A stretch of 46,988 nucleotides of DNA from a virus: the IMG/VR virus record IMGVR_UViG_3300043434_000826, positions 1-46,988 of that record; one strand, 5' to 3'. A model generated the notes under the pieces. The model was given only the letters and a program-made list of their open reading frames with translations. It did not search any database and had not been told where the DNA came from. The position numbers and the translations under genes are program-made. Positions within the stretch are counted from its first letter, which is position 1. Every line of letters begins with the position of its first letter. This document shows, piece after piece, positions 13,766 to 40,551 of the stretch.

Positions 13766-13775
13766 CTTTTATTAC

Positions 13776-13860: not shown

Positions 13861-13863
13861 CAT

Positions 13864-13938
13864 CTTAGCGTAGCGCAATGGTAGCGCACCGACTTTGGGA
13901 GTCGGGGGTTGCAGATTCGAGTTCTGCCGCTGAGACCA
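13864..13938 (+). tRNA. tRNA-Pro (TGG)
   Basis: Acceptor CTTAGCG/CGCTGAG, D-stem GCGC/GCGC, anticodon stem CCGAC/GTCGG with loop TTTGGGA, T-arm GCAGA-TTCGAGT-TCTGC, discriminator A and encoded CCA. Confidence 0.93.
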
Positions 13939-13941
13939 AAT

Positions 13942-14015
13942 TGGCGATTAGCATAATGGCAATGCCATCGACTTTGACTCGATTTATGAAAGTTCGATTC
14001 TTTCATCGCCTGCCA
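13942..14015 (+). tRNA. tRNA-Gln (TTG)
   Basis: Anticodon stem ATCGA/TCGAT with loop CTTTGAC, D-stem GCAT/ATGC, T-arm GAAAG-TTCGATT-CTTTC, discriminator G and encoded CCA. The first acceptor pair is a T-T mismatch; the other six pair. Weak 1:72 pairs are typical of tRNA-Gln. Confidence 0.9.
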
Positions 14016-25383: not shown

Positions 25384-25457
25384 GCGCTTGTAACTTAGCG
25401 GTCTAAAGTATTCGACTCATAATCGAGGAATCACTGGTTCGAATCCAGTCGGGCGCA
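25384..25457 (+). tRNA. tRNA with CAT anticodon (Met or Ile2)
   Basis: Acceptor GCGCTTG/CGGGCGC (two G-U), D-stem ACTT/AAGT, anticodon stem TTCGA/TCGAG with loop CTCATAA, T-arm ACTGG-TTCGAAT-CCAGT, discriminator A. CCA not encoded. Elongator Met versus lysidine-modified Ile cannot be decided by eye. Confidence 0.88.
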
Positions 25458-25464
25458 CTTTTTA

Positions 25465-25555
25465 GGGGAAATGGCAGAGTGGTCTAATGCGCTCGACTTG
25501 AAATCGAGAGTGGGTTAAAAGCTCACCGTGGGTTCGAATCCTACTTTCCCCGCCA
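25465..25555 (+). tRNA. tRNA-Ser (TGA)
   Basis: Acceptor GGGGAAA/TTTCCCC, anticodon stem CTCGA/TCGAG with loop CTTGAAA, long variable arm, canonical T-loop, discriminator G and encoded CCA. Class II tRNA of 91 nt. Confidence 0.93.
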
Positions 25556-25571
25556 ACCAAATCAAACAAAC

Positions 25572-25645
25572 TTTTCTGTAGCTTAATGGGACAAAGCGAC
25601 TGTAGTAATATTCAGTAGATGTAGGTTCGAATCCTACCAGAAAAA
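25572..25645 (+). tRNA. tRNA with unusual anticodon arm, identity unclear
   Basis: Acceptor TTTTCTG/CAGAAAA, D-stem GCTT/AAGC and T-arm GTAGG-TTCGAAT-CCTAC are normal. The anticodon arm has only ACTG/CAGT paired around TAGTAATATT, giving a 10-nt loop, or 8 nt if a T-T mismatch is allowed. No T33 followed by an obvious anticodon; AAT (Ile) or TAA (Leu) are possible readings. CCA not encoded. Confidence 0.6.
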
Positions 25646-25657
25646 CCTCAAATAAAT

Positions 25658-25735
25658 GAGGGGGTATCGGAACTGCCTTCTAAGCAGTAGCACCGTAAGG
25701 GATCAATGCTGGTTCGAATCCAGTTCCCCTCACCA
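25658..25735 (+). tRNA. tRNA-Arg (TCT) lacking a D-arm
   Basis: Acceptor GAGGGGG/TCCCCTC, anticodon stem ACTGC/GCAGT with loop CTTCTAA, T-arm GCTGG-TTCGAAT-CCAGT, discriminator A and encoded CCA are all good. Only seven bases (TATCGGA) separate acceptor and anticodon stems, so no D-stem forms. A 19-nt variable region contains ACCGTAAGGG, whose CCG could pair with the CGG of the short linker. Confidence 0.7.
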
Positions 25736-27561: not shown

Positions 27562-27644
27562 TAAACTGTTGGAAATCAAGCACTTACAGCAAAATGACCC
27601 CTACGGGGTCTGATCCGTGTAAGTCGTTCATTATCAACAACTTA
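27562..27644 (+). repeat. 83-nt palindromic element, copy R1
   Basis: Core GACCCC-TAC-GGGGTC flanked by CACTTAC/GTAAGTCG arms and terminal TTG...CAA hairpins. The 5' hairpin is degenerate. Downstream of the minus-strand gene 27791-28051. Confidence 0.85.
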
Positions 27645-27657
27645 TAACAAGCAATCG

Positions 27658-27740
27658 TAAACCTTTGAGTTTCAACAACTTACAGCGAAACGACCCCGTA
27701 GGGGTCGCGTGGGTGTAAGTCGTTGATTATCAACAACTTA
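27658..27740 (+). repeat. 83-nt palindromic element, copy R2
   Basis: Core GACCCC-GTA-GGGGTC (loop reversed relative to R1), in tandem with R1 at 96-nt spacing. A CCCTACCCC/GGGGTAGGG hairpin follows at 27753-27778. Confidence 0.85.
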
Positions 27741-27790
27741 CGAAGACGATTTGCCCTACCCCCCGCTAAGGGGTAGGGCGTGCCATGTCA

Positions 27791-28051
27791 TCACTTACCG
27801 TTAGAAAGGTCTAGCATGTCTTCAGCCAAGATTGAGATGAGTTCTTCAGTGTATGTGTAGGGATCATCGCCGCAGCTTTCAGCGTGTTTTTCAATCGCAT
27901 CCCATAGCATAATGCGGGGGCGGTTCTCGTCGTCCTCGTCAACCAAGGCGCAGCAGAGTTGGTCTGCCGTTAAATCGGGAACTTGTGAAAGAAAGTGTCC
28001 AGCGGCACGGAGATAGATAGCGGCATTTTTCGGGTCGTTTAGGTCTGTCAT
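27791..28051 (-). CDS. Hypothetical protein, 86 aa
   Basis: Acidic helical protein (QLCCALVDEDDENRPRIMLW). No family recognised. Last unit of the minus-strand array; single-gene transcription unit with its own promoter, followed by R2 and R1. Confidence 0.65.
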   Translation of the reverse strand: MTDLNDPKNAAIYLRAAGHFLSQVPDLTADQLCCALVDEDDENRPRIMLWDAIEKHAESCGDDPYTYTEELISILAEDMLDLSNGK

Positions 28052-28060
28052 ATCGGGGAA

Positions 28061-28088
28061 AGGTTAGTTGTTTTGAGAGAGTGGTCAA
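28061..28088 (-). promoter_or_regulatory. Promoter of 28051 gene
   Basis: TTGACC, 16-bp spacer, TAACCT, TTCCCCGAT (9 nt), ATG. Confidence 0.78.
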
Positions 28089-28091
28089 GGT

Positions 28092-28151
28092 TTATTTTAA
28101 CGCAATTAAAAACAACAGCAGCGCGAGTAGTAAGATTTGCCAAATGGTCAT
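28092..28151 (-). CDS. Micro membrane peptide, 19 aa
   Basis: MTIWQILLLALLLFLIALK: almost entirely hydrophobic, directly downstream of the GP88-like gene (6 nt gap). A similar 18-aa peptide follows the second GP88-like gene at 34243-34299, which argues for a real two-gene unit. Confidence 0.55.
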   Translation of the reverse strand: MTIWQILLLALLLFLIALK

Positions 28152-28157
28152 GCTGGT

Positions 28158-28877
28158 TCAATCACAAAGTCCGAAGAATTTTTGAGACTCTACAACAAAA
28201 CCCGAAGAATCTTTTTTCGCTTTGCCTTTTTCGACAAGTCCGACGATGACGTTTTGAGGGTCAAGAAAGCGGAGGTCACTTTCGTCACCGCTAACGACAC
28301 GATACCCTTTCCACGTTGGAGGAAGCGAGCCACGGAAAACCACGGCGACATTTCCGCCACTGGCAAGAACAGCATCGACAAGTTTTTCGTTAGACTCAGA
28401 ACGGGAGAATGTCAGATCATAGTTCGATGGCAATTTTTCATCAAGAAAAGCAGTCATTCGAGATACGCTTTTTGTGTAGTCGTAGAATTGAACGTCAGGG
28501 AACAAATCAAAAACAGTTTTGCCGTTCAGTGTGATTTTTTCCCAAGGTAGATCGCTTGTCAGATTCAAACGAAAGCAGGGAGTAAGTTTTTTCTTTTCTG
28601 CCGATTTCACAGCAGCAGCGATTTCTTTCACAAGTTGAGCCATGAATAAAGCCTTGTCTTGAAAGAAGAATTTTGTTTTTGCGATACGTGCAGCTTGCAC
28701 AGTGGAGAAAACGCCATGCCCAGCGGTATTGAGACAAGCAGCAGCACAGCCAGTGCTAGCGTTTTGACAAGTATTGAAGCCCGACAAGTTAGAAGGCGCG
28801 AGGTGAACGCCGAACGTCTGGAAGCCAAGAGCTTCTCCTTTTTTGATTTTGGTATTTGATGTAGTTAGCAATTTCAT
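28158..28877 (-). CDS. GP88-like protein, copy 1
   Basis: 239 aa. Matches the phage gene product 88 family: an N-terminal KLLTTSNTKIKKGE, LSGFNTC, GCAAACLNTAGHG, RIAKTKFFF, FMAQLVKEI, FRLNLTSDLPWEK, and LFPDVQFYDYTK in order. Family function is not established; conserved Cys residues suggest a metal cluster. A second copy lies at 34315-35010. Followed by a 19-aa hydrophobic peptide. Confidence 0.75.
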   Translation of the reverse strand: MKLLTTSNTKIKKGEALGFQTFGVHLAPSNLSGFNTCQNASTGCAAACLNTAGHGVFSTVQAARIAKTKFFFQDKALFMAQLVKEIAAAVKSAEKKKLTPCFRLNLTSDLPWEKITLNGKTVFDLFPDVQFYDYTKSVSRMTAFLDEKLPSNYDLTFSRSESNEKLVDAVLASGGNVAVVFRGSLPPTWKGYRVVSGDESDLRFLDPQNVIVGLVEKGKAKKDSSGFVVESQKFFGLCD

Positions 28878-28885
28878 GCGGAGAA

Positions 28886-28914
28886 AAGTTAGTTGTTTCG
28901 GGGGGAGTTGTCAA
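28886..28914 (-). promoter_or_regulatory. Promoter of GP88-like copy 1
   Basis: TTGACA, 17-bp spacer, TAACTT, TTCTCCGC (8 nt), ATG. Confidence 0.85.
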
Positions 28915-28918
28915 GAAT

Positions 28919-29275
28919 TTACCACCAAGAATAGTAAAAAACTTTCTTGCCCTCCTTGATAGCTTGGCGAGCCACAACAATAAAGTCGAGAGTTTGTTTT
29001 TTGTAGTAGTCATCGCCGCGAGAATCCGAGCCGAAAAAGAAGCCTTTTGTTTCTGGCAATTCATCAGCAAGAACAGCTTGCTCCAAGCGTTCAAGATGTT
29101 TTGCGTTCAATTGCAAAGGAATGCAGTTGAAAGATGGATCATCTTTATGGCGGCGAGGGCAACCCCTTTCTTCCCATAGCTTTTCCATCCAACCATGAAG
29201 CGCGTTATGTTTGCGCCAATAACCTATTTCTTGTTTTTCTTTTCCTTGCTTTGCGTAGAGATACATGTCCAGTCC
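28919..29275 (-). CDS. Phage protein of the MGLDMYLYAK type, 118 aa
   Basis: The opening MGLDMYLYAK then YWRKHNALHGWMEKL is a recognisable small phage family of unknown function. I use ATG 29275 after CACTACTACT, not the TTG-started longer frame. The gene has an unusually long leader for this array, carrying a 7-codon upstream frame. Confidence 0.7.
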   Translation of the reverse strand, partial: GLDMYLYAKQGKEKQEIGYWRKHNALHGWMEKLWEERGCPRRHKDDPSFNCIPLQLNAKHLERLEQAVLADELPETKGFFFGSDSRGDDYYKKQTLDFIVVARQAIKEGKKVFYYSWW

Positions 29276-29297
29276 CATAGTAGTAGTGAGGTGATAG

Positions 29298-29321
29298 TTA
29301 GTTGTGAAGTGCGCCAATCAT
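29298..29321 (-). CDS. Possible 7-codon leader peptide (MIGALHN)
   Basis: Its ATG lies 13 nt after the -10, close to where array genes normally start, while the real gene starts 46 nt further on. It may be a remnant start or a regulatory uORF. Confidence 0.35.
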   Translation of the reverse strand: MIGALHN

Positions 29322-29334
29322 CGGCGACACGCAA

Positions 29335-29362
29335 AAGATAGCATTTCGGCGGGAATTGTCAA
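29335..29362 (-). promoter_or_regulatory. Promoter of 29275 gene
   Basis: TTGACA, 16-bp spacer, TATCTT, TTGCGTGTCGCCG then the uORF ATG. Confidence 0.75.
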
Positions 29363-29474
29363 TATGTTTTTTGTATTTTTTCACAATTATTTTTGTGCGA
29401 TTGTGCGAAAAAAGTTCTTGACAGACTCTAACGAAAAACCTCTAACAGATTTTTACCTACGGCAGCAATCGCCA

Positions 29475-29557
29475 TAAACCGTTGGTTTTCAACAACTTAC
29501 AGCAAAATGACCCCTTCGGGGTCGCGTCGATGTAAGTCGTTGATTTTCAACAACTTA
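29475..29557 (+). repeat. 83-nt palindromic element, copy R3
   Basis: Core GACCCC-TTC-GGGGTC. Has the upstream companion: a TTGACA at 29418 exactly 57 nt before the element, and CTCTAAC/CTCTAAC copies between. Confidence 0.88.
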
Positions 29558-29570
29558 TGAGAATCCCCCA

Positions 29571-29621
29571 CTAGAAGTAAGCTGTTTCCAGTCGGGGCAT
29601 GGAGGCCCTTGTCCTTCTAGC
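29571..29621 (-). other. Hairpin-flanked spacer after 29631-29768
   Basis: CTAGAAG (29571-29577) pairs with CTTCTAG (about 29614-29620) around a GC-rich insert. No U-run. Possible 3' structure of the upstream operon. Confidence 0.4.
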
Positions 29622-29630
29622 GAGGGAAAA

Positions 29631-29768
29631 CTATTTCTTTTGTTCTTCGTCTATTTGTTTCTTACCATCACGACGAACAAGTTTGTTTTGTGCGCGTTTT
29701 CTGTCGCGTAGGTGTTTCCACCACTCGACAGTTTTCACAGATCCTTTTGATTTACTTGATGAAGCCAT
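29631..29768 (-). CDS. Small basic protein, 45 aa
   Basis: MASSSKSKGSVKTVEWWKHL then RDRKRAQNKLVRRDGKKQ. Very basic, 17-nt overlap with the upstream gene. Likely nucleic-acid binding by charge only. Confidence 0.55.
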   Translation of the reverse strand: MASSSKSKGSVKTVEWWKHLRDRKRAQNKLVRRDGKKQIDEEQKK

Positions 29769-29979
29769 GAAAGCGTTTTTGATATTCTTCCCATTTCTGA
29801 TGAAAAAGATTGTTTTCTTCTCCGTTTAACGGTTCCACATTGTCAGGGTTCCACTTGCTACGCATCCAGCGAGAGTTAAATCCACTATCCATGCAAGAAG
29901 TCCAAAAGACTTTGTGTTGATTCCCGTCTTTCTCGACAATAGTTGAACGGTTAGATTTGAGTCTGTAAAGTTGTTTCAT
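29752..29979 (-). CDS. Hypothetical protein, 75 aa
   Basis: Trp-rich, basic N-terminus, with a central CMDSGFNSRWMRSKW. No family recognised. ATGA overlap with the upstream small gene. Confidence 0.6.
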   Translation of the reverse strand: MKQLYRLKSNRSTIVEKDGNQHKVFWTSCMDSGFNSRWMRSKWNPDNVEPLNGEENNLFHQKWEEYQKRFHGFIK

Positions 29980-30110
29980 TTTCTACAAGCTTTTTTGTTT
30001 GATTCTTTCTTGCGGTCTTTGAATGAGAAGCAAGGCGGGGCGACAGGATGACGGACTAGGTTGCGCATGTCAAGAGAATTTTGCGCAAGTTGTTTCTTTT
30101 TTGTTTTCAT
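29976..30110 (-). CDS. Small basic protein, 44 aa
   Basis: ATGA overlaps at both ends tie it into the SprT-like operon. Lys/Arg-rich with two Cys. Unknown function. Confidence 0.6.
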   Translation of the reverse strand: MKTKKKQLAQNSLDMRNLVRHPVAPPCFSFKDRKKESNKKACRK

Positions 30111-30457
30111 GCATAAATGTATTTTGGAAGTGGAATGCGAGTTCTAGCAGGGATACCCATTTCTTTACACACAGCGGCGAAATCTTCTCCATGTAAAATG
30201 CGGCGACCGTTCTTTCTCAGAAAGCGATTGCCATTCCGCTTGAACTGAATGAAGTGCGCAATCTCATGCTTCAAGACCTCATCGAATAGCTTGAATGAAA
30301 CAAGAATAATTTTGTTGAGTTTGATTTTGTCTTGCGATACGTAGGCAAGACCGAGAAAGTTTTGTCCGTTCATCCATTCGATTTTGAGGTGAGACATTCC
30401 CCACTGTTTCAAGGTCATGCGGATGTATTGAGTGATTTCTGTAGTGGTGGCAAACAT
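30107..30457 (-). CDS. SprT-like zinc metallopeptidase
   Basis: 116 aa. HEIAH at residues 64-68 gives the H-E-x-x-H zinc site, with a third His at about residue 89 (LHGEDF), the spacing of SprT/WSS1-like proteases, followed by MGIPA. Bacterial SprT function is unclear; eukaryotic SPRTN cleaves DNA-protein crosslinks. First gene of a four-gene operon with three small basic proteins. Confidence 0.8.
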   Translation of the reverse strand: MFATTTEITQYIRMTLKQWGMSHLKIEWMNGQNFLGLAYVSQDKIKLNKIILVSFKLFDEVLKHEIAHFIQFKRNGNRFLRKNGRRILHGEDFAAVCKEMGIPARTRIPLPKYIYA

Positions 30458-30466
30458 GGCGGCGAA

Positions 30467-30495
30467 AGTATTATGTTTTTCGGGGGGAGTGTCAA
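30467..30495 (-). promoter_or_regulatory. Promoter of SprT-like operon
   Basis: TTGACA, 17-bp spacer, AATACT, TTCGCCGCC (9 nt), ATG. Confidence 0.8.
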
Positions 30496-30505
30496 GAATT
30501 TTTAA

Positions 30506-30862
30506 TCAACGAGCAGCAAAAACTTTTTTACCATTTAAGATCACTTCTTCTGCGAGAAAGATGTCTGAACCTTGGCACTGAAACCGATCTGCCTCATAAG
30601 GATTGTATCTAACAGAAAGAAAAGGCTTGTTAGACTGAATGCCAGAAACTAACGTGCCAATGATGAATGCGTGAACATTCTTTCTTTTTTGTTTAAGAAC
30701 ACGCTGGCGACCCGCTTCTGATACTTTGAACTGCACGTTTCTAACGTAAGCATCTTCCAGATGCGCAACGACTTTCCAACGCCCATTTACTTTTGTCTGA
30801 ACAGACAGCTTTTTCTTGTGGAGATTGAAATAGATGCGAACGATTTGATTTAGTGGCAACAT
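30506..30862 (-). CDS. Hypothetical protein, 118 aa
   Basis: Beta-rich N-terminal half with a basic VKQKRKNVHAFIIGTLV-like centre (KQKRKNVHAFIIGTLV in the sequence). I use ATG 30862 because the promoter spacing fixes it; the longer frame from 30880 overlaps the -10. No family recognised. Confidence 0.65.
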   Translation of the reverse strand: MLPLNQIVRIYFNLHKKKLSVQTKVNGRWKVVAHLEDAYVRNVQFKVSEAGRQRVLKQKRKNVHAFIIGTLVSGIQSNKPFLSVRYNPYEADRFQCQGSDIFLAEEVILNGKKVFAAR

Positions 30863-30871
30863 GGCGAGAGA

Positions 30872-30900
30872 AAAATGCACTTTCTGCGGCTATTTGTCAA
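30872..30900 (-). promoter_or_regulatory. Promoter of 30862 gene
   Basis: TTGACA, 17-bp spacer, CATTTT, TCTCTCGCC (9 nt), ATG. Confidence 0.75.
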
Positions 30901-31003
30901 CAAGTTTCTGCAAATAAAAATCAAATAAATAGTAAATAAATAGTAAATAAATAACCGTTAAATAACCGTGCGGGGGGATTTGGGAGTAAATTTTGAATCT
31001 TCA
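30901..31003. other. AT-rich spacer with TAAATAG repeats
   Basis: Contains AAATAAATAG and two tandem copies of GTTAAATAACC-like sequence (near 30940-30970). No gene seen. Precedes the triple 83-nt repeat. Confidence 0.4.
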
Positions 31004-31086
31004 TAAACCGTTGAGTATCAACGACTTACGCCAAAACGACCCCTACGGGGTCTGATCCGTGTAAGTGCTTGATTATCAACAACTTA
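31004..31086 (+). repeat. 83-nt palindromic element, copy R4
   Basis: Core GACCCC-TAC-GGGGTC. First of three tandem copies with a 96-nt period. Confidence 0.9.
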
Positions 31087-31099
31087 TGACGAAGAGTCG

Positions 31100-31182
31100 T
31101 AAGCCGTTGAGTATCAACGACTTACGCCAAAACGACCCCTACGGGGTCTGATCCGTGTAAGTGCTTGATTATCAACAACTTA
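31100..31182 (+). repeat. 83-nt palindromic element, copy R5
   Basis: Identical to R4 except one base near the start (TAAGCC versus TAAACC), so it is a recent tandem duplicate. Confidence 0.9.
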
Positions 31183-31195
31183 TGACGAAGAGTCG

Positions 31196-31278
31196 TAAGC
31201 CGTTGAGTTTCAACAACTTACGGCAAAACGACCCCGTAGGGGTCGCATCGGTGTAAGTCGTTCATTATCAACAACTTA
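31196..31278 (+). repeat. 83-nt palindromic element, copy R6
   Basis: Core GACCCC-GTA-GGGGTC, i.e. the reversed loop relative to R4 and R5, at the same 96-nt period. Confidence 0.88.
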
Positions 31279-31328
31279 CGACGATTGGCTTTGTGCGATT
31301 ATGTCAAGACTTTTTTTTGAAAATGTTG

Positions 31329-31358
31329 GGGAGCGGCTAAACCAAAAACCGCTCCCCT
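31329..31358. other. Hairpin after 31383 gene
   Basis: GGGGAGCGG/CCGCTCCCC, 9-bp perfect stem with a 12-nt A-rich loop. A U-run is lacking on the minus strand; likely 3' structure of the 31383-31613 message. Confidence 0.5.
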
Positions 31359-31382
31359 TGTATGTCAACCACCGAAAAATTG

Positions 31383-31613
31383 TTAGACTTCGAAACCCTC
31401 CTCTTCTAACAGTTCTATCACAGCATCTTGCGCGATGCTGTAAAGTTCAGAAACGAGAGCGTTTTCCTCTCCCTCTTCTTCAATGTATTCTTCCATCTCA
31501 TCAAGACCATACATGACGCAGGGAAGATCGGGCAAGTCAGAGAGGCAAAGACCCGACAAGTCGATGCAAGCGGCGTTCATGATAGTGAGGCATTTTTTAC
31601 GTGTGTTATTCAT
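31383..31613 (-). CDS. Hypothetical acidic protein, 76 aa
   Basis: Strongly acidic C-terminal two thirds (EMEEYIEEEGEENALVSELY) with four Cys near the N-terminus. Anti-restriction or mimic roles are imaginable for acidic phage proteins but there is no evidence. The gene's promoter lies inside the end of the upstream gene. Confidence 0.65.
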   Translation of the reverse strand: MNNTRKKCLTIMNAACIDLSGLCLSDLPDLPCVMYGLDEMEEYIEEEGEENALVSELYSIAQDAVIELLEEEGFEV

Positions 31614-31622
31614 GGCAAGAAA

Positions 31623-31651
31623 ATGTTAGTTGTTTTGAGGTGAGTTGTCAA
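31623..31651 (-). promoter_or_regulatory. Promoter of 31613 gene
   Basis: TTGACA, 17-bp spacer, TAACAT, TTTCTTGCC (9 nt), ATG. Overlaps the last codons of the gene ending at 31626. Confidence 0.82.
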
Positions 31652-31859
31652 CAAGTTTTTTGACATATTGTTTTGTGGCTTGATGCGCGGCAGAACTTAA
31701 ACAGCAATCGACATTAAAAAAACGGTTTTTGTAATTCAAATTGGCGTAGCAGATAAATTTTTCGCTTTCTGTTCCAAAATTTTCAGCGAGCAAAACACAG
31801 TTTTCGGCGTGGCAATTGTTTTCTTCGTTTTGCAAGTATTCTTTTAAGAGTTTGTTCAT
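31626..31859 (-). CDS. Hypothetical protein, 77 aa
   Basis: Asn/Cys-rich (NEENNCHAENCVLL, DCCLSSAAHQ). No family recognised. Its C-terminal codons double as the promoter of the next gene. Confidence 0.62.
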   Translation of the reverse strand: MNKLLKEYLQNEENNCHAENCVLLAENFGTESEKFICYANLNYKNRFFNVDCCLSSAAHQATKQYVKKLVDNSPQNN

Positions 31860-31868
31860 GGCGGCGAT

Positions 31869-31897
31869 ATGTTAGTTGTTTTGGGGCAGATTGTCAA
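31869..31897 (-). promoter_or_regulatory. Promoter of 31859 gene
   Basis: TTGACA, 17-bp spacer, TAACAT, ATCGCCGCC (9 nt), ATG. Confidence 0.82.
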
Positions 31898-31900
31898 GAT

Positions 31901-32092
31901 TTATTTTGCTTCAATCACTCGCATTTCATCGCTGCGTAATGCGTGACCGTAGAACATACGCAGCATTTTACACGCTTCCTCTTGCGTATCGTATTGATAC
32001 GGTGCAGACGATGGAGTTTGACGGATTGACTTCCAGATTTTTTTTGTGGGGTCTTGCGGGTCTTGGATTTTTATTTGCATTTCATATTTCAT
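31901..32092 (-). CDS. Hypothetical protein, 63 aa
   Basis: MKYEMQIKIQDPQDPTKK then an AYQYDTQEEACKMLRMF-like helix (APYQYDTQEEACKMLRMF). Resembles small phage proteins of a beta-alpha type; no name assigned. Confidence 0.62.
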   Translation of the reverse strand: MKYEMQIKIQDPQDPTKKIWKSIRQTPSSAPYQYDTQEEACKMLRMFYGHALRSDEMRVIEAK

Positions 32093-32101
32093 GGCGGGGA
32101 A

Positions 32102-32130
32102 AGAGTAACAGTAAAAACCAATCGGCGCAA
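32102..32130 (-). promoter_or_regulatory. Promoter of 32092 gene
   Basis: TTGCGC, 17-bp spacer, TACTCT, TTCCCCGCC (9 nt), ATG. Confidence 0.78.
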
Positions 32131-32241
32131 GTATTTTTTTTGATTATTTTCTAAAAAAAGTTTGTCATACGTGCAAAAAACACTTGACAAAAGTCTAACG
32201 GAAAACGCTTTTTTTACTTGTTAGGAGCCTAACAACCTGCG

Positions 32242-32324
32242 TAAACCATTGATTTTCAATCACTTACGGCAAAACGACCCCGAAGGGGTCGCGTCGATGT
32301 AAGTCGTTGAGTATCAACGACTTA
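32242..32324 (+). repeat. 83-nt palindromic element, copy R7
   Basis: Core GACCCC-GAA-GGGGTC. Companion TTGACA at 32184, 58 nt upstream, with GTCTAAC and GTTAGG...CCTAAC between. Confidence 0.9.
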
Positions 32325-32379
32325 TGACGATTCGCGATGTGTAAGCCAACCCCTTTCGGGGCTGGCTGTGTGTTTTCCG

Positions 32380-32529
32380 TTAGACGAACTCCAGAGTGCC
32401 TAACGGAACTTCATCCTCACGCCCATCCTCAAAGCGGATGAGGGCGCGATTTCCAACTGGAGTATTGACAACTTCGACAAGCTCAACTTCTGAGCCACAG
32501 TAAATGACGGTTTCGATTTCTTCAATCAT
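32380..32529 (-). CDS. Hypothetical SH3-like small protein, 49 aa
   Basis: MIEEIETVIYCGSEVELVEV then GNRALIRFEDGREDEVPLGTL reads as a compact five-strand barrel. I use ATG 32529, fixed by the promoter 9 nt upstream; the frame from 32592 runs through it. An AGCC..CCCC/GGGG..GGCT hairpin follows at 32343-32369. Confidence 0.65.
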   Translation of the reverse strand: MIEEIETVIYCGSEVELVEVVNTPVGNRALIRFEDGREDEVPLGTLEFV

Positions 32530-32538
32530 GGCGAGAGA

Positions 32539-32567
32539 AAGATAGTTTATTTTTGCGGATAAGTCAA
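32539..32567 (-). promoter_or_regulatory. Promoter of 32529 gene
   Basis: TTGACT, 17-bp spacer, TATCTT, TCTCTCGCC (9 nt), ATG. Confidence 0.8.
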
Positions 32568-32637
32568 CAAGTTTTTTTACTTTTTTTTGCATTTTGAGGG
32601 GAGCGGCGAAACAAAAAGCCGCCCCCCTCTGCCATGC

Positions 32638-32934
32638 TCAATCCACCACGATTGAAAATTGTTTTTCAATGCCGCCGCATTTGAAATGCGTAACCTTTTC
32701 AGGCATAAAACTAAAGTATGTATCACGATTGCGATTCACGGCAAACATGTAGCCTTGCTGACGAAGAGCGGTGGTCGCTGGCGAGCCAGTTCCTTTAACC
32801 AGCTTTGAAAAGCGGTCTTTTGCGTTAATGGTGCGCATCGTTCCATCTTTCTTTTGGAAAGTGATAGAAAAGAAACGTCCTTTTGTTGCGTCGATGAGTT
32901 GTGCGATTTCGGATTGTGTTGCGGTGTGTTGCAT
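32638..32934 (-). CDS. SH3 beta-barrel-fold-like phage protein, 98 aa
   Basis: The segment TKGRFFSITFQKKDGTMRTI then a K-G-x-G stretch matches small phage proteins annotated as SH3-beta-barrel fold-containing (GK-F-x-V-x-F-x-K-K-D-G-T-x-R-x-M). Binding partner unknown. A GAGGGG.GCGGC hairpin follows at 32596-32632. The ATG lies 34 nt after the -10, an exception to the fixed spacing. Confidence 0.65.
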   Translation of the reverse strand: MQHTATQSEIAQLIDATKGRFFSITFQKKDGTMRTINAKDRFSKLVKGTGSPATTALRQQGYMFAVNRNRDTYFSFMPEKVTHFKCGGIEKQFSIVVD

Positions 32935-32968
32935 AGTTTTGTTTTGTTTGTTGTTAGTAGGCGAGAGA

Positions 32969-32998
32969 AAGTTAGTTGTTTTGGGGGGGGGTTGTCAA
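32969..32998 (-). promoter_or_regulatory. Promoter of 32934 gene
   Basis: TTGACA, 18-bp spacer containing a nine-C run, TAACTT, TCTCTCGCC. The usual ATG position reads TAC, and the gene starts 25 nt later. Confidence 0.78.
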
Positions 32999-33006
32999 GA
33001 TTTTTT

Positions 33007-33186
33007 TTAATTGTTTTTGATGTAGTTTTGAATGTGGGCGAGAGCGTAGCAAGTAGCTCCAAAAACAAAAAAGCAGATAGCGTCAAAGACTTCACTTTTG
33101 CCCCGATAGATGGCGAAAGCGCAGAAGCTGAAAATTGGAGATAGGGTGAGTAAGGCGGAACCGACGATGGTGGCGATGTGTTTCAT
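33007..33186 (-). CDS. Small membrane protein, 59 aa
   Basis: Two hydrophobic segments (about residues 4-26 and 36-50) joined by a YRGKSEVF loop. ATG 33186 after CACTCCATC-type leader, TAA at 33007. Supported by its own promoter at 33210-33238. Confidence 0.65.
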   Translation of the reverse strand: MKHIATIVGSALLTLSPIFSFCAFAIYRGKSEVFDAICFFVFGATCYALAHIQNYIKNN

Positions 33187-33209
33187 GATGGAGTATTGGT
33201 TGCGGGGAA

Positions 33210-33238
33210 AGAATAGTTTATTTTTGCAGTATTGTCAA
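33210..33238 (-). promoter_or_regulatory. Promoter of 33186 gene
   Basis: TTGACA, 17-bp spacer, TATTCT, TTCCCCGC; ATG 23 nt after the -10. Confidence 0.78.
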
Positions 33239-33246
33239 CAAGTTTT

Positions 33247-33480
33247 TTATGCAAGTGCGCGTTTTGCGCGAAAAGTTTTCAACAGTCTTGCCGCCTCTTT
33301 GCGAGAAACAAAAACCGCCACAGCCATATTTGCGCCGCCGAAAACGACAAGCTCCTCATGAGATTTGAAACGGCGCGAGCGTGTCATCTCGAAAAGGTCA
33401 CAATCGTATTTTGTGCGTTCTGCGGTGCGAGTAGTGGTGAATTTTCCGTTTGAGTTTGTCTTGATGAATTGGTATGTCAT
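33247..33480 (-). CDS. Hypothetical basic protein, 77 aa
   Basis: MTYQFIKTNSNGKFTTTRTA then TRSRRFKSHEELVVFGGA. Basic, mixed fold; no family recognised. Start fixed by the promoter 9 nt upstream; the 110-aa frame from 33579 is rejected because it crosses the promoter. Confidence 0.65.
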   Translation of the reverse strand: MTYQFIKTNSNGKFTTTRTAERTKYDCDLFEMTRSRRFKSHEELVVFGGANMAVAVFVSRKEAARLLKTFRAKRALA

Positions 33481-33489
33481 GGCGAGGAA

Positions 33490-33518
33490 AGAATACTCTT
33501 TTTTGCGCGGATAGTCAA
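33490..33518 (-). promoter_or_regulatory. Promoter of 33480 gene
   Basis: TTGACT, 17-bp spacer, TATTCT, TTCCTCGCC (9 nt), ATG. Confidence 0.82.
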
Positions 33519-33629
33519 CATTTTTTTTTGATTTATTTTCCGAAAAAAGTTTGTCATACTTGTAAAAAACGCTTGACAAAAGTCTAACGAAAAACGCTTT
33601 TTTGACTTGTTAGATAGCCTCGACACGAA

Positions 33630-33712
33630 TAAACCGTTGATTTTCAACAACTTACAGCAAAACGACCCCTTCGGGGTCGCCTCGACGTAAGTCGTTGATT
33701 TTCAACGACTTA
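33630..33712 (+). repeat. 83-nt palindromic element, copy R8
   Basis: Core GACCCC-TTC-GGGGTC. Companion TTGACA at 33573, exactly 57 nt upstream; the flank is nearly identical to that of R7 for about 60 nt further. Confidence 0.9.
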
Positions 33713-33744
33713 TGACGATAAGCAACAAAACAGTTGTCGAGTTT

Positions 33745-33969
33745 TTAGTCGCGCAACTGCACAAATTGCAAGCATTTCCAACCGACCCAACCTTTGCCAT
33801 CATTGAAAACAGCTGTCTTTTCATCCCAGTAAGAAAAGATGCCGCGATTGGTATTGACTCCAGGCTTGAGTTGAGCGGCAATCTCTTCGCGCATCTCTTC
33901 GAGATCAGCTTCGATTTCCTTGCTGCGTGTGATTTGGTATGAGGGGCAGTGTGAATGGGGATGTCGCAT
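33745..33969 (-). CDS. Hypothetical protein, 74 aa
   Basis: His/Cys-rich start (MRHPHSHCPSYQ) that could bind a metal, a coiled-coil-like EIEADLEEMREEIAAQL, and a Trp-rich C-terminus. No family recognised. Confidence 0.62.
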   Translation of the reverse strand: MRHPHSHCPSYQITRSKEIEADLEEMREEIAAQLKPGVNTNRGIFSYWDEKTAVFNDGKGWVGWKCLQFVQLRD

Positions 33970-33978
33970 AACGAGAAA

Positions 33979-34007
33979 AGTTTAACCTAGAACCAACAAA
34001 AACACAA
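33979..34007 (-). promoter_or_regulatory. Promoter of 33969 gene
   Basis: TTGTGT, 17-bp spacer, TAAACT, TTTCTCGTT (9 nt), ATG. Confidence 0.72.
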
Positions 34008-34118
34008 GAACTTTTTTCTATTTTTCGCAAAAAAGTTTTTTCAGAAAAGCGCGTTTTTTTCTTGACAAGAGTCTAACGAAAACCACTTTTTAAGCCGTTT
34101 GGACTCTAACGGCTTGCG

Positions 34119-34201
34119 TAAATCGTTGATTTTCAACAACTTACGGCAAAACGACCCCGAAGGGGTCGCGTCGATGTAAGTCGTTGATTTTCAACAACTT
34201 A
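34119..34201 (+). repeat. 83-nt palindromic element, copy R9
   Basis: Core GACCCC-GAA-GGGGTC. Companion TTGACA at 34062, exactly 57 nt upstream; an AAGCCGTT/AACGGCTT 8-bp hairpin lies between. Confidence 0.9.
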
Positions 34202-34242
34202 TTGAGGCAATCGACGCGCCACTTTGTCAAGCTTTTTTTTAT

Positions 34243-34299
34243 TTATTTTCGGTCTGCCAGCAGGAACAAAAGCACCGCAACAATCAAGAAAAAAATCAT
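34243..34299 (-). CDS. Micro membrane peptide, 18 aa
   Basis: MIFFLIVAVLLFLLADRK, analogous in position and character to the 19-aa peptide after GP88 copy 1. Fifteen nt after the GP88 copy 2 stop. Confidence 0.55.
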   Translation of the reverse strand: MIFFLIVAVLLFLLADRK

Positions 34300-34314
34300 T
34301 TTTTTCGTTAGGTG

Positions 34315-35010
34315 TTAGTGTTCGATCACAAAGCCGCTTTCATCTTTCTTTGCCTTGCCTTTCTCGACAAGTCCGATGATGTTTCCCGAACCATCGAGAA
34401 AGCGCAAATCTGTATCATCGCCATTGACGACTTGCACTCCCAAGTATTGAGAGGGAAGAGACTTGCGAAAAACCATTGCAACATTGCCGCCCGATTTAAG
34501 AATTGATTCAGCTATTGCGCCGTTAGTCTCCGAACGTGAGAAAGTCAAGTGATAATTTTTTGGCATTTCACCAGCAAGAAAAGCCGTCATGCGTTCGGGG
34601 CTTTTGGTGTAATCGTAAAACCAGCACTGCGGAAACATGTCAAAGATATTGCGCCCGTTCAATTTGATTTTTTCCCATGGCAAGTCACTTGTGAGATTCA
34701 AGCGGAAAGTTGCGACCATGCCATTTTTTTGAGCGGATTTGATAGCAGAAGAGATTTCTTTAATGAGCTGCGCCATGAATGACGCTTTATCTTTGAAAAA
34801 CAATTTTGTTTTTTCAATTCTTGCGCGTTGCACGTTGGAATAGACTCCCATACCAGCGGTATTGAGACAAGCGGCGGCACATCCTGGAGATGCGTCTTTA
34901 CAGACGTTGAAACCTGATAGACTAGCGGGGGCAAGGTGAATGCCGAAAGTTTTGTAACCGTGTTTTTCACCTTTTCGGATTTTTGTATTGGCGGTAGTAA
35001 GTAATTTCAT
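34315..35010 (-). CDS. GP88-like protein, copy 2
   Basis: 231 aa, clearly homologous over its full length to 28158-28877 (shared LTTxNTKIxKGE, THLAPxxLSGFN-type, GCAAACLNTAG, TKLFF/TKFFF, RLNLTSDLPWEKI, LFP.x.FYDYTKS). Slightly shorter at the C-terminus. Function unknown. Followed by an 18-aa hydrophobic peptide as in copy 1. Confidence 0.75.
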   Translation of the reverse strand: MKLLTTANTKIRKGEKHGYKTFGIHLAPASLSGFNVCKDASPGCAAACLNTAGMGVYSNVQRARIEKTKLFFKDKASFMAQLIKEISSAIKSAQKNGMVATFRLNLTSDLPWEKIKLNGRNIFDMFPQCWFYDYTKSPERMTAFLAGEMPKNYHLTFSRSETNGAIAESILKSGGNVAMVFRKSLPSQYLGVQVVNGDDTDLRFLDGSGNIIGLVEKGKAKKDESGFVIEH

Positions 35011-35019
35011 GACGGGGAA

Positions 35020-35047
35020 AAGTTAGCAGATTGAGGGATTTTGTCAA
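35020..35047 (-). promoter_or_regulatory. Promoter of GP88-like copy 2
   Basis: TTGACA, 16-bp spacer, TAACTT, TTCCCCGTC (9 nt), ATG. Confidence 0.84.
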
Positions 35048-35056
35048 TAGTTTTTT

Positions 35057-35230
35057 TTATTGTTTTTCTAAAGTATCGGAAAGCATGACAAGCAAGCCCA
35101 TCGAACCAACAAAGCAAGCAATGCAAGCAACGTGAACATGCGTTTCGCAAGATTGCGCTCCCGTGATGATTGCGAAAGCGGCAACGGAAAGAATAAGGGC
35201 GGTGAGTGTAAAGATAGCAAAGTATTTCAT
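35057..35230 (-). CDS. Small membrane protein, 57 aa
   Basis: Two hydrophobic segments (about residues 4-20 and 32-50) with several Cys and His between (SCETHVHVACIACF). Start at ATG 35230 from promoter spacing; ATG 35239 is rejected. Function unknown. Confidence 0.65.
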   Translation of the reverse strand: MKYFAIFTLTALILSVAAFAIITGAQSCETHVHVACIACFVGSMGLLVMLSDTLEKQ

Positions 35231-35239
35231 GACGCGCAA

Positions 35240-35268
35240 AGAGTAGCATTTCAGAGACTAACGCGCAA
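35240..35268 (-). promoter_or_regulatory. Promoter of 35230 gene
   Basis: TTGCGC, 17-bp spacer, TACTCT, TTGCGCGTC (9 nt), ATG. Confidence 0.78.
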
Positions 35269-35378
35269 GTATTTTTTTCTATTTTTTATTTATTTTTTTT
35301 GTGTTATGGCTTATTTTTTTCTTGACAAAAGCCTAACGAAAACCGTTTTTTGACTTGTTAGAAGTCTAACAATCTGCG

Positions 35379-35461
35379 TAAACCGTTGATTTTCAACAAC
35401 TTACGGCAAAACGACCCCGAAGGGGTCGCGTCGATGTAAGTCGTTGATTTTCAACAACTTA
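35379..35461 (+). repeat. 83-nt palindromic element, copy R10
   Basis: Core GACCCC-GAA-GGGGTC; almost identical to R9. Companion TTGACA at 35322, exactly 57 nt upstream, with a perfect TTGTTAGA/TCTAACAA hairpin between. Confidence 0.9.
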
Positions 35462-35496
35462 TGACGATTGTGTTTTTTGTTGTTTTTTTTCTTGAC

Positions 35497-35527
35497 AGGG
35501 GAGCCGATCTTGCGACCGACTCCCCCG
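35497..35527. other. Hairpin after 35534 gene
   Basis: GGGGAGCCG pairs with CGACTCCCC (one G-U) around a 9-nt loop. No U-run on the minus strand; TTGACA on the plus strand directly abuts it. Confidence 0.45.
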
Positions 35528-35533
35528 CTGTTG

Positions 35534-35785
35534 TCAGACCACAAGGTCAATACCAGCAAGATGCAAGTTGCGGTATTTGCTTTCGCCATTGTCGTCTACA
35601 TCTAACGCTTTCACGGTGACATAACGCTTGCCATTCTTGGCAAAGGCGACATTTTCAACCGCTTCAATTTTCAGGACGCGAACGCCGTCAGCTTTCAGCT
35701 TTGACTTTTCCGCAAAGTAGCGAACGGTTTTGTTGACGAGGGCGGAAACGAGTTTTTCAGTTGGTGTATTGTAGTCGAAGAACAT
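35534..35785 (-). CDS. Hypothetical protein, 83 aa
   Basis: Helical N-terminus then a beta-rich C-terminus (RYVTVKALDVDDNGESKYRN, in part). No family recognised. Single-gene unit. Confidence 0.65.
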   Translation of the reverse strand: MFFDYNTPTEKLVSALVNKTVRYFAEKSKLKADGVRVLKIEAVENVAFAKNGKRYVTVKALDVDDNGESKYRNLHLAGIDLVV

Positions 35786-35794
35786 AACGAGGAA

Positions 35795-35823
35795 AAGATA
35801 AAGGATTTTTGCGAGTTTGTCAA
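35795..35823 (-). promoter_or_regulatory. Promoter of 35785 gene
   Basis: TTGACA, 17-bp spacer, TATCTT, TTCCTCGTT (9 nt), ATG. Confidence 0.82.
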
Positions 35824-36712: not shown

Positions 36713-37561
36713 ATGTCTATCATACGCTACGAAAATATTAGAATCTCTATGCCCCGAAACAGTTTTGGAGCAACTGGATCGTTTGTAGCGCTAGCAACAG
36801 ATGTGAAGATTTCTAACGCCGCGAAACTAGCTAGGCAGTCTTATCTTGCCCCAAATCTAATTCCTGATATGAGAGTAGGAGGCAATGCAGACACAAAGCT
36901 TTCTTTTTCTTACCCTGTTTGCAACAAGCTTCTCAATGATAATTTGGCGCAAAACTCTTTTAATTTCGCATCTGGCGTGTTTGCGAATGATCTTACTGGA
37001 TTCAACAGTGTAGATCTTACTGTTGGCGATAGAATCTTTAGCGGTTGTTATCTCGACGATTTTTCAATCGACATTGCGCCGTTTCAACCAGTGATGATGA
37101 ATGTGAACTTTACATGCACAATTCCTCCCCATGGATTACCTTTTGTTTCGGGGCAAGCGCTGTCTCCAATAGAAACATCCAAGAAAGTTGCGTATGGTCA
37201 CTTTGCAGAAGTTTCGGGGACAACAAACTACTCTGCGCCAATTCAATCGAATGTGTCTTATTCTATGAGCTTCAAGAGAACATATTCTTATGCTGTTTCA
37301 AAAAGATTTCCCAACAGCGTGTTTCTTGATGAGGTAAACAAACAAGTAAACATTAAATCGACAAACATCAATCAGTTCATCAACGAGTCAGGAGCTTTCG
37401 GGGCAATGAACATCAATCTAAAAAACGAACTCGGGGAACTTGTTTTGCCGCAAAACACTCTTTTTGTTTCAACAGAAGCTAGGCTCAGCGCTCAAAATCT
37501 ATCTGCCCAGCCTGGAAATATTTTAACCGCAGACGTAACTATTGACGAAGCTGTTCTATAA
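36713..37561 (+). CDS. Putative virion structural protein (tail tube-like), 282 aa
   Basis: Beta-rich, with repeated Ser/Asn/Phe-rich strands and few charged helices, as in phage tail tube or other virion proteins. It opens the late module just before PhoH, sigma-like, terminase and portal genes. No specific motif, so tail tube is a guess; other capsid or decoration proteins are possible. Confidence 0.5.
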   Translation: MSIIRYENIRISMPRNSFGATGSFVALATDVKISNAAKLARQSYLAPNLIPDMRVGGNADTKLSFSYPVCNKLLNDNLAQNSFNFASGVFANDLTGFNSVDLTVGDRIFSGCYLDDFSIDIAPFQPVMMNVNFTCTIPPHGLPFVSGQALSPIETSKKVAYGHFAEVSGTTNYSAPIQSNVSYSMSFKRTYSYAVSKRFPNSVFLDEVNKQVNIKSTNINQFINESGAFGAMNINLKNELGELVLPQNTLFVSTEARLSAQNLSAQPGNILTADVTIDEAVL

Positions 37562-37580: not shown

Positions 37581-38312
37581 ATGCCTAAAAAAAGATTTAG
37601 TCAGTCGGACTCGGTTGAGATTCAGTTGAATCAAGCGAGCAAAATCAAAACTAAAAAAAAGAACTTCAAGTTCACCCCAAAACAAGTTCAATTACTTGGG
37701 ATGCTTTTAGACCCCGAAAATAAAATCATTTTTATATCTGGAGCAGCGGGAACTTCTAAGACATACATGGCGCTTTATGCAGCTATCGAGATGATGTCAG
37801 AAGACAGCAACAAGCAGCTTCTTTATATTCGTAGCATTATCGAAAGTGCTGATAAAGGATTAGGTAGCTTACCTGGTGATATTTCTGAGAAGTTCGATCC
37901 GTTCCTGATGCCTCTCTATGATAAGCTTGAGGAGATTGTTGTGCCGCAAGATATGGCGCATCTTAAATCAACAGGAAGAATCAGTGCCGTGCCTATCAAC
38001 TTTTTGCGTGGCGCAAGTTGGACTGACAAAATTATTGTCGCGGATGAAGCTCAAAACTTTTCCGCCAAAGAACTTATTACTTTGATTACCCGAATTGGCG
38101 AAGGTTCCAAGATTATTATCTGCGGCGATGCTATGCAAAGCGATATTGGTAAGCTGAAAACAGGTTTCTCGCCCATGATGGGAATTTTCAATGATGAAGA
38201 AAGTAAGCAAAAAGGAATTCAAACATTCGTGTTTACTAAAGATGATATTGTTCGCAGTGAAATCTTGAAATTCATTGTCAAAAAACTCGAAGACGGCGAC
38301 TTTCATGTGTAA
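37581..38312 (+). CDS. phoH: PhoH-like ATPase
   Basis: 243 aa. Central FISGAAGTSKTYMALYAA (Walker A region, about residues 51-68) and KIIVADEAQNFSAKEL (Walker B with DEAQN, about 150-165), then GDAMQSDIG. This is the PhoH family ATPase core frequent in large phages. It may act in RNA or phosphate-related metabolism; the role is not settled. Confidence 0.85.
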   Translation: MPKKRFSQSDSVEIQLNQASKIKTKKKNFKFTPKQVQLLGMLLDPENKIIFISGAAGTSKTYMALYAAIEMMSEDSNKQLLYIRSIIESADKGLGSLPGDISEKFDPFLMPLYDKLEEIVVPQDMAHLKSTGRISAVPINFLRGASWTDKIIVADEAQNFSAKELITLITRIGEGSKIIICGDAMQSDIGKLKTGFSPMMGIFNDEESKQKGIQTFVFTKDDIVRSEILKFIVKKLEDGDFHV

Positions 38313-38812: not shown

Positions 38813-39502
38813 GTGGAAGAACCTCGCATAAAGACATACGAAGAGTGTTATCATATAATTGACTCTGTTGTTTCAAAATATCAGAACAAGTGGCGGCTTA
38901 ACGCTATCAACTGGTTCGATTTTGAAGACGTAGCGCAAATCATCAAAACCCATATCTTCAAAAAATGGGATATGTGGGATCAAAGCAGACCGCTTGAGCC
39001 TTGGGTTTCAAGAATTGCCTCGCACCAAATCAAAAACATTGTGCGCAACAATTACACCAATTACGTGAAGCCTTGTATGTCTTGTCCTCACAACATGGGC
39101 GACAACTTATGCTCTCTTACTTCCTCTGGCGAACAAAATTCTTCATGCTCGATGTATGCAAAATGGGCAAAGTCAAAAAGACAAGGCTATGGAGTCAAAA
39201 TGCCGCTTGCTATGGAAAATCATCAGCAAGAAATAGATTCTTTCACAGATTCTGGCGTAGACTTCACAAGTGTTATAGATCGTCTCAACAGCATACTTAA
39301 AAAAGAACTTTCTGCTGAGCATTATAAAGTTTACATGATGTTGTTTTTTGAAAATGCATCGGAAGATGATGTAGCTCAATACATGGGCTACAAAACATCA
39401 GAAAAAAACCGAGCAGCAGGATACAAACAAATCAAAAACCTAAAAAAAATGCTCAAAGAGAAAGTCCAAGAAATTATTGAGAAAAACGATATAGTTCTAT
39501 GA
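38813..39502 (+). CDS. RNA polymerase sigma-like factor
   Basis: 229 aa from GTG 38813, immediately after the previous stop. Residues about 33-80 (FDFEDVAQIIKTHIFKKWDMWD, then LEPWVSRIASHQIKNIVRNNY) resemble sigma-70 region 2 (DLxQExx..., WLxxIAxN). Residues about 170-215 form a helix-turn-helix like region 4. A Cys-rich insert (CMSCPHNMGDNLC, then CSMY) is unusual. It may direct late transcription, as T4 gp55 does, which would fit the TAATAA/TAATAT promoters of this module. Confidence 0.75.
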   Translation: MEEPRIKTYEECYHIIDSVVSKYQNKWRLNAINWFDFEDVAQIIKTHIFKKWDMWDQSRPLEPWVSRIASHQIKNIVRNNYTNYVKPCMSCPHNMGDNLCSLTSSGEQNSSCSMYAKWAKSKRQGYGVKMPLAMENHQQEIDSFTDSGVDFTSVIDRLNSILKKELSAEHYKVYMMLFFENASEDDVAQYMGYKTSEKNRAAGYKQIKNLKKMLKEKVQEIIEKNDIVL

Positions 39503-40551
39503 ATTTAACAGAAGACCAAAAACAAAAAATCCAAGAAGTTTTTAGTAAAACGCCAGATCTCAACGAGATCGTGCGAGTTGTTTTCGAAAATCCAGAACTT
39601 GACGGAAGATCTAAAGAAGGGCGCTTAGTTAGAGCGTATATGATTTCTGCGGGAATGAAGTTTAATACTGCTCGCCGCGAAAAAAAAGAAGACATATCGT
39701 TTTCAGAGCAACAAAGAGAGTTTATCATAGATCAAGCCAACAAAGGCTTGTCTTCTCTAGCTATTGCAGAGCTACTCTTTCCGAAAAAAGAGGTTAAGCC
39801 TCTGTCGATGGAACAACGGGCTGTTCACGCAATAATCAAGGAGCTGAATCCAGACTATTCTCCCTCGGAGGATGTCGAGGCGACTCTTTCGAGTTATGTC
39901 GCGCCAAAAGCATTTGGGCGAGTCCTCAAAAAAATTAATGATGCAACTGGGCATACATTTGAGGAGGAGAAGATTAATAGACAGCTCCGTATTTGTGTGG
40001 AGAAACTAGGAATCAATCTTAACAATTCACGTTTCGTTAAGATTATGAATAACTATACGTCCAAAGACGATAGGGAGCTTTTTGAGCAAGAATTCATTCG
40101 CCTAACATGGGATAAGCCAGATCTTACGTCTGACGAAATTAACCTATACATGAACGTGTGCAAAGAAATCATCAATCTTGAGGTGATTAGTAAGCATTTG
40201 AATAAGCTAAACGATATGTTCGACATTGCTAACGATCAAGAAGAGATGAGCGTTAGACTTGCGGAGATTATTAAAGCAAAAAGCGGTGAATATCATCAAT
40301 GCGAAACTCGAATCGAAAACTTGACAAAAAAACTACAGGGAGATAGAGCTTCAAGGATGCAGAGCAAGCAAAAAGAAAACGCTTCTCTATTGGCTCTTGT
40401 TCAATTCTTCCAAGACGAAGAAGAAAGAAACAATATGGTCAAAATTGCAGAAATGCAAAAAGAACTTGTCGCTGAAGAAGCTAATAGACTCGAAGGAATG
40501 GATGAGTGGAAAGCTCGTATTCTTGGAATTTCAAAAGAACATGTCATTTAA
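39499..40551 (+). CDS. Hypothetical protein, 350 aa (possible small terminase)
   Basis: Helical, charged protein; residues about 75-110 (FIIDQANKGLSSLAIAELLFP) could be a helix-turn-helix. Its position before the nuclease and large terminase would fit a small-terminase-like role, but this is inference. ATGA overlap with the sigma-like gene. Confidence 0.6.
   Translation: MNLTEDQKQKIQEVFSKTPDLNEIVRVVFENPELDGRSKEGRLVRAYMISAGMKFNTARREKKEDISFSEQQREFIIDQANKGLSSLAIAELLFPKKEVKPLSMEQRAVHAIIKELNPDYSPSEDVEATLSSYVAPKAFGRVLKKINDATGHTFEEEKINRQLRICVEKLGINLNNSRFVKIMNNYTSKDDRELFEQEFIRLTWDKPDLTSDEINLYMNVCKEIINLEVISKHLNKLNDMFDIANDQEEMSVRLAEIIKAKSGEYHQCETRIENLTKKLQGDRASRMQSKQKENASLLALVQFFQDEEERNNMVKIAEMQKELVAEEANRLEGMDEWKARILGISKEHVI

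Follow-up and report, generated by a model that had tools for sequence, protein, structure and literature searches.

The stretch analysed here (the window) is the full-length IMG/VR virus record IMGVR_UViG_3300043434_000826, 46,988 bases from a large phage whose genes include rIIA, rIIB, PhoH, a sigma factor and a terminase. Ten copies of a palindromic element of 83 nucleotides (nt) lie within a block of small genes on the minus strand of the window. A plus-strand gene convergent with the block closes it on the left, and its right limit is formed by the F2 gene (36713..37561, plus strand), which also borders the array region in relatives, and by a PhoH-like gene adjoining the array (37581..38312, plus strand; phrog_170, E 6e-63).

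The copies lie at 27562..27644 (copy 1), 27658..27740 (copy 2), 29475..29557 (copy 3), 31004..31086 (copy 4), 31100..31182 (copy 5), 31196..31278 (copy 6), 32242..32324 (copy 7), 33630..33712 (copy 8), 34119..34201 (copy 9) and 35379..35461 (copy 10), all assigned to the minus strand, which is the sense of the gene block. An earlier description made from the letters of the record without database searches (the sequence-only reading) had reported ten copies of exactly 83 nt in one orientation. This was confirmed by software alignment: all ten aligned without a gap (mean column identity 85%), and no further copy was found elsewhere in the record. With up to two mismatches allowed, the core GACCCC-NNN-GGGGTC was observed ten times against 0.17 expected and no shuffle gave ten; chance does not account for the copies.

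The layout in the window is TAAnnnGTTGA-NNN-TCAACnACTTA, a 33-nt centre and then TAAGTnGTTGA-NNN-TCAACnACTTA, so that the whole element is a single imperfect palindrome. In copy 10, taken as the reference, the first 25-nt palindrome (35379..35403) consists of the half-sites TAAACCGTTGA and TCAACAACTTA flanking TTT, the centre (35404..35436) holds GACCCC-GAA-GGGGTC and the second 25-nt palindrome (35437..35461) reads TAAGTCGTTGA-TTT-TCAACAACTTA. The 3-nt core loop is found both ways round among the ten copies (TTC/GAA, TAC/GTA). Copies 4, 5 and 6 form a tandem of 96-nt units, and copies 1 and 2 are likewise spaced by 96 nt; copy 2 shares 96% identity with its positional counterpart in G005. Every copy is 3′ of a minus-strand gene and eight are additionally 5′ of the following one, which supports the proposed position between minus-strand transcription units; copies 1 and 2 stand at the convergent end, past the last minus-strand gene.

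The element family in uncultured viruses

Relatives were collected by a scan with the core and then by scans with the single palindrome, those of the second palindrome scan being among the matches listed. In the shared plan two 25-nt palindromes of the form TAASTCNTTGA-NNN-TCAANGASTTA flank a GC-rich centre (~90% GC); each palindrome has the geometry 11-3-11, and the half-site TAASTCNTTGA occurs four times per element. At least 479 elements in at least 136 loci were recorded with a sequence profile that contained no structure. The end consensus over 1520 half-sites was TAASTCG / CGASTTA.

The modal length of the locus was found in 333 of 357 copies, and this length differed among loci (66/67, 73–77 or 83 nt). 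The length constraint suspected in the window is therefore real but not peculiar to this virus. The arms were conserved nearly equally within and between viruses (0.81 and 0.78), whereas the centre was more similar within a virus than between viruses (0.72 versus 0.56). Decay of the outer arms was seen in several relatives belonging to the 83-nt class, which retain ACTTAC-8-GACCCC-3-GGGGTC-8-GTAAGT.

GenBank phages gave no match to the element and no cultured relative of it was found; the terminase gave distant matches only. Rfam applied to the window returned tRNAs as the sole matches and no described RNA family, and no description of this element was found in the open-licence literature. The sequence-only reading knew of no described family of this form, which agrees with the Rfam and GenBank results, and no membership of a known repetitive extragenic palindrome (REP) or terminator family emerged. 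Searches along the lines that it had suggested gave many relatives in uncultured viruses and none in GenBank phages. The element family marks a large group of uncultured bacterial viruses, each with its own fixed length.

A host origin was rejected: 24 stretches from the genome scan hold the palindrome singly, some of them beside tRNA genes, and nine of the scanned host genomes that were checked contained 0–3 matches each and no phage-like array. A single TAAGTGGTTGA-NNN-TCAACCACTTA adjoins an apparent tRNA gene in seven sequences from Bacteroidota and one metagenome-assembled genome (L085, L088, L091, L092, L094, L103 and L106), where it could serve as a terminator or an integration site. Single palindromes of this kind were also seen in the transfer/mobilization region of IncP and IncW plasmids (L285:2501-2530 and L286:2501-2533).

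DNA site versus RNA fold

Pairing between arms was evaluated on 380 distinct elements. At nine of the 11 positions the frequency of Watson–Crick pairs equalled the pooled-column expectation; the small excess at positions 4 (0.58 versus 0.46) and 7 (0.51 versus 0.46) may come from seeds selected for complementarity. Half-site conservation was highest at AA (positions 2–3) and T (position 9), with A2, A3 and T9 nearly invariant, and lowest at the G/C positions 4 and 7, which pair in only 50–60%. This pattern is the opposite of the requirement of a stem. The two arms of one copy matched no more often than arms taken from different copies in the same genome (z of 1.3 and −1.2), and half-sites in the same direction, which are unable to pair, were about as correlated between genomes as pairable ones. 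The overall wobble count (GU 248, AC 320) gave no general sense-strand bias, the sense strands being approximate and the gene calls mechanical. No covariation was found for the three-hairpin or the single long-hairpin fold in 18 close copies of the window family, and in the wider family the folding of the GC-rich centre did not exceed that of shuffled sequence (mean z −0.2). RNA hairpins were rejected on these pairing, wobble, covariation and centre-folding tests. The three hairpins put forward in the sequence-only reading were not supported as the conserved feature, since independent half-sites explain the pairing, and the covariation check proposed there was negative for both folds.

The same data bear on the reading in which the element is transcribed at the 3′ end of a module, as a folded RNA of three hairpins or one long hairpin that ends or protects the upstream mRNA in the manner of a terminator or a bacterial interspersed mosaic element (BIME). 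The location 3′ of modules, at the convergent end too, is in its favour, as are the good folding of each window copy (strongest for the minus strand, at −31 to −52 kcal/mol), the (G/A)TTTT that follows GACCCC-NNN-GGGGTC on the minus strand in most copies and the 29 GU against two AC pairs of the window family on that strand. This wobble bias weighs little because the copies share ancestry, leaving few independent sites, and because the bias is inverted in L019, another member of the length class (two GU, 15 AC). The T-run does not follow the centre in the wider family, and many copies in relatives already adjoin an ordinary terminator. In the terminator scan two of the ten window copies passed, with 11 sites against 11.9 in shuffles. 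An intrinsic terminator, with a GC stem and an immediate U tract, was rejected on this count, and together with the absent covariation and the shuffle-like centre these results make the transcribed 3′ element rather unlikely. Among the functions listed in the sequence-only reading the protein-binding site fits best; the terminator and the other hairpin-based RNA options are not supported.

Clade, placement and module variation

In the larger contigs the copies are confined to one region of small genes, 7–10 kb in extent, near PhoH. The F8 gene (39499..40551, plus strand), upstream of the terminase, encodes a conserved 350-aa protein that was used as an element-blind bait for a clade search, and 346 contigs encode relatives of it. 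Among the best 80 of these contigs, elements were present upstream of F8 in 25 of the 27 loci with 6 kb or more of sequence on that side, and downstream of F8 in none of the 47 loci that have 3 kb or more there. Conversely, F8 was encoded by all 21 array carriers tested, and two contigs with an isolated single palindrome were without it. Some loci overlap or are near-identical, and neither the F8-locus nor the array-carrier counts are independent. The link between F8 and the element is one of co-occurrence alone. The F8 model is helical, with N-terminal helices resembling a helix–turn–helix and long C-terminal helices; at a predicted template modelling score of 0.44 it is a modest model, in which the helices could form helix–turn–helix-like units. 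No significant match to the model was found in the PDB, and weak sequence matches leave F8 as a protein that could be a small terminase. Further along, a 1023-aa protein (41476-44547) matches a helicase in its first half and the terminase large subunit in its second.

The two F8 loci that lack the element, L208 and L210, carry another repeat in the same region. It consists of ATTTTTAT, 19 GC-rich nt and ATAAAAAT, is 35 nt long, is often flanked by TCTAACAG (L208:418-5777, L210:1416-6184) and is present also in L039, L150 and L229. It is unlike the element in sequence and like it in plan, with inverted arms on both sides of a GC-rich centre whose length is fixed.

Elements are intergenic, only nine of 422 being inside genes. 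By gap type, 302 were in tandem gaps (600 gaps), 48 in convergent (62) and 24 in divergent (99), and one gap may hold more than one element. Orientation follows the genes only loosely (79 to 20). In the window, four copies are 148–149 nt and one is 141 nt from the next start codon, whereas the gap to the preceding gene ranges between 32 and 296 nt. In the wider family, copies resemble one another more in the flank facing the next gene, conserved to ~90 nt, than in the opposite one, where conservation does not extend past 15 nt. At copy 10 the next-gene flank (35314..35378) reads CTTGACA..CTAACG..TCTAACA; related forms stand at copies 3, 7, 8, 9 and 10 and belong to the 149-nt repeat family D1. 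TCTAACA motifs between a TTGACA hexamer and the element were seen in L039, L141, L150, L055 and the window (35328-35378), with an 11-bp period in relatives; these repeats are possibly an operator. Many minus-strand genes at 28048-35823 have a promoter of the form TTGACA-17-TAnnnT ending 10–15 nt upstream of the start codon, so that their mRNAs would be nearly leaderless.

The conserved flank is also where a small RNA gene would have its promoter, driving a 75–83 nt RNA that is present in several copies per virus and acts on a host or phage factor. Several viruses have TTGACA-17-TATAGA-like promoters 31–36 nt ahead of the element and directed into it. A TTGAC hexamer aimed into the element from the next-gene side was found in 85 of 282 tandem copies (~30%), compared with 23–27 of 282 (~10%) reading away. 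Some of the inward hexamers belong to good promoters, but a promoter into the element in every copy was rejected on this proportion. The wobble pairs have no consistent strand, and L208 and L210 hold unrelated sequence where a specific RNA would not allow it; a small RNA gene is accordingly improbable.

The order of shared modules is largely kept among relatives, and whole modules, each comprising genes and one element, differ (F16, F32). L073 is without one module and one element of L079: its left flank matches element 7 and its element matches element 8 of L079, the junction that recombination between repeats would leave. Enzymes were searched in ten carriers of 104–200 kb, and a control search run alongside that for PF00589 was positive in 14 of 14 genomes. 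A tyrosine recombinase or integron integrase (PF00589), a serine recombinase, ParB (PF02195) and the Y1 transposase (PF01797) of REP-associated tyrosine transposases (RAYTs) were not detected in these carriers; in the last case a host might supply the enzyme. Rejected on this basis were a serine recombinase, a parS partition site (no ParB), REP/BIME elements with a RAYT (no PF01797) and an integron attC array (no IntI, and ends that are not the R boxes RYYYAAC / GTTRRRY).

The variable modules, the L073 junction and the restriction of the copies to one variable region would suit elements that serve mainly as cassette boundaries for the gain, loss and exchange of modules, by homologous recombination, the mode proposed for the T4-type PeSLs described below, or by an unrecognized site-specific enzyme; deletions reported between palindromes in Cluster O phages (PMC4351075) provide a parallel. 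The missing recombinases and Y1 transposase, the conserved order of shared modules and a strictness of length and half-site beyond what homology needs all count against this. Several breakpoints of gain and loss also lie away from the elements, for example at a short repeat around F52, and element-driven cassette exchange as the sole explanation was rejected. That the elements act mainly in this way is unlikely.

A selfish repeat spreading within the phage genome like a miniature inverted-repeat transposable element, with no role for the phage, would account for centres that are alike within a virus and for the 96-nt tandems in the window. It is very improbable given the near absence of copies from genes, their confinement to one region, their presence in most of the clade loci reported above, the conservation of the arms across the clade and the lack of a Y1 transposase in the carriers searched.

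Other features of the window include two diverged phrog_1617 copies within the array region (28158-28877 and 34315-35010, the second also matching Pfam GP88, PF17338), two tRNA clusters (13617-14015 and 25384-25732), one of which includes a tRNA with an unclear anticodon, a UvdE-like UV endonuclease gene (6712-7626) and a gene for a RuvB-like AAA protein (24200-25111).

Interpretation and related systems

We tentatively favour, at somewhat below an even chance, a boundary site at the DNA level: the element would be bound by protein between separately promoted modules, and its copies would also supply homology for gain and loss. The site itself consists of four 11-bp half-sites in two inverted pairs (11-3-11) flanking a GC-rich spacer of a length fixed per virus. 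A protein, probably a phage-encoded dimer, would bind both palindromes at the borders of the small-gene modules, and the bound site would limit read-through from one module to the next as well as oncoming antisense transcription. Being alike, the copies could also provide the homology for losing or exchanging entire modules, and exchange among them would keep length and centre uniform within a genome. The architecture, the behaviour of the half-sites, the location between genes, a length fixed per genome and the tie to one clade are observed; the binding protein and its binding, the effect on transcription and the homogenizing role of recombination are what we infer. Support comes from the independence of the arms, the constancy of length within a virus, the intergenic placement, the linkage to F8 and the L073 junction.

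Several observations weigh against such a boundary site. F8 is a clade marker only, and the spacing of the two palindromes (about 41, 50 or 58 bp) does not correspond to complete helical turns. Genes are gained and lost away from the elements as well. The hexamers aimed into the element would also suit a small RNA gene, and the wobble bias of the window family would suit an RNA. A more specific version, in which the length and centre of each lineage are matched to its own binding factor, so that the sites which insulate a phage's modules and mediate their exchange are read less well by a co-infecting rival, we consider quite unlikely.

The closest analogues are the palindromes of Cluster O and Cluster K mycobacteriophages, stoperators and the early promoter–stem-loop modules (PeSLs) of T4-type phages. 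Cluster O phages carry 17-bp palindromes, TGTTCGG-NNN-CCGAACA, of unknown function (PMC4351075). Like the element, these are clade-specific, dispersed and in many cases intergenic, have a free 3-nt centre and an orientation not strictly tied to transcription, and undergo deletion through recombination between copies (PMC4351075). They differ in being single sites that occur genome-wide, about one third of them inside genes (PMC4351075), whereas the element, unrelated to them in sequence, has paired 25-bp palindromes with the half-site TAASTCNTTGA around a GC-rich spacer and is restricted to one region. The extended start-associated sequences (ESAS) of Cluster K share the two inverted copies around a spacer, the subcluster-specific consensus and the intergenic location; however, they adjoin a 13-bp start-associated sequence (SAS) at the start codon and have a variable spacer of 4–13 bp (PMC3203893). 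The spacer of the element is fixed per virus, and in the window the next start is ~150 nt away.

PeSLs are likewise repeated intergenic modules, each an early promoter with a stem-loop, in variable regions of large myoviruses, and have been linked to the shuffling of modules (PMC4503421); for the element, in contrast, a hairpin constraint was not supported. With regard to an early promoter joined to a stem-loop terminator, part of the copies have promoter-like hexamers on the next-gene side; with regard to module shuffling, one junction is at an element flank and others are elsewhere. The stoperators of Cluster A resemble the element as numerous intergenic protein-binding sites thought to block transcription, but are 13 bp long, asymmetric and oriented with transcription, whereas the element is palindromic, 25 bp, paired and loosely oriented. 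Stoperators belong to temperate phages with a repressor; an integrase (PF00589) was not found in the ten carriers. In attC arrays one imperfect palindrome follows each cassette, and the palindromes resemble one another in the same genome but differ from one genome to the next. The element likewise follows each cassette-like module and shows a genome-specific likeness; it differs in the half-site, which is not an R box, and in the lack of an integron integrase in the carriers tested. As far as the literature could be read, no analogue has this sequence together with palindromes in pairs and a GC-rich spacer of genome-fixed length.

The element provides a simple DNA signature for a large clade of uncultured phages. 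A length fixed per genome together with a conserved half-site poses a clear, testable puzzle as to what reads the site and how the spacing is kept uniform. A boundary function, if real, would reveal how phages separate and swap many individually promoted small genes.

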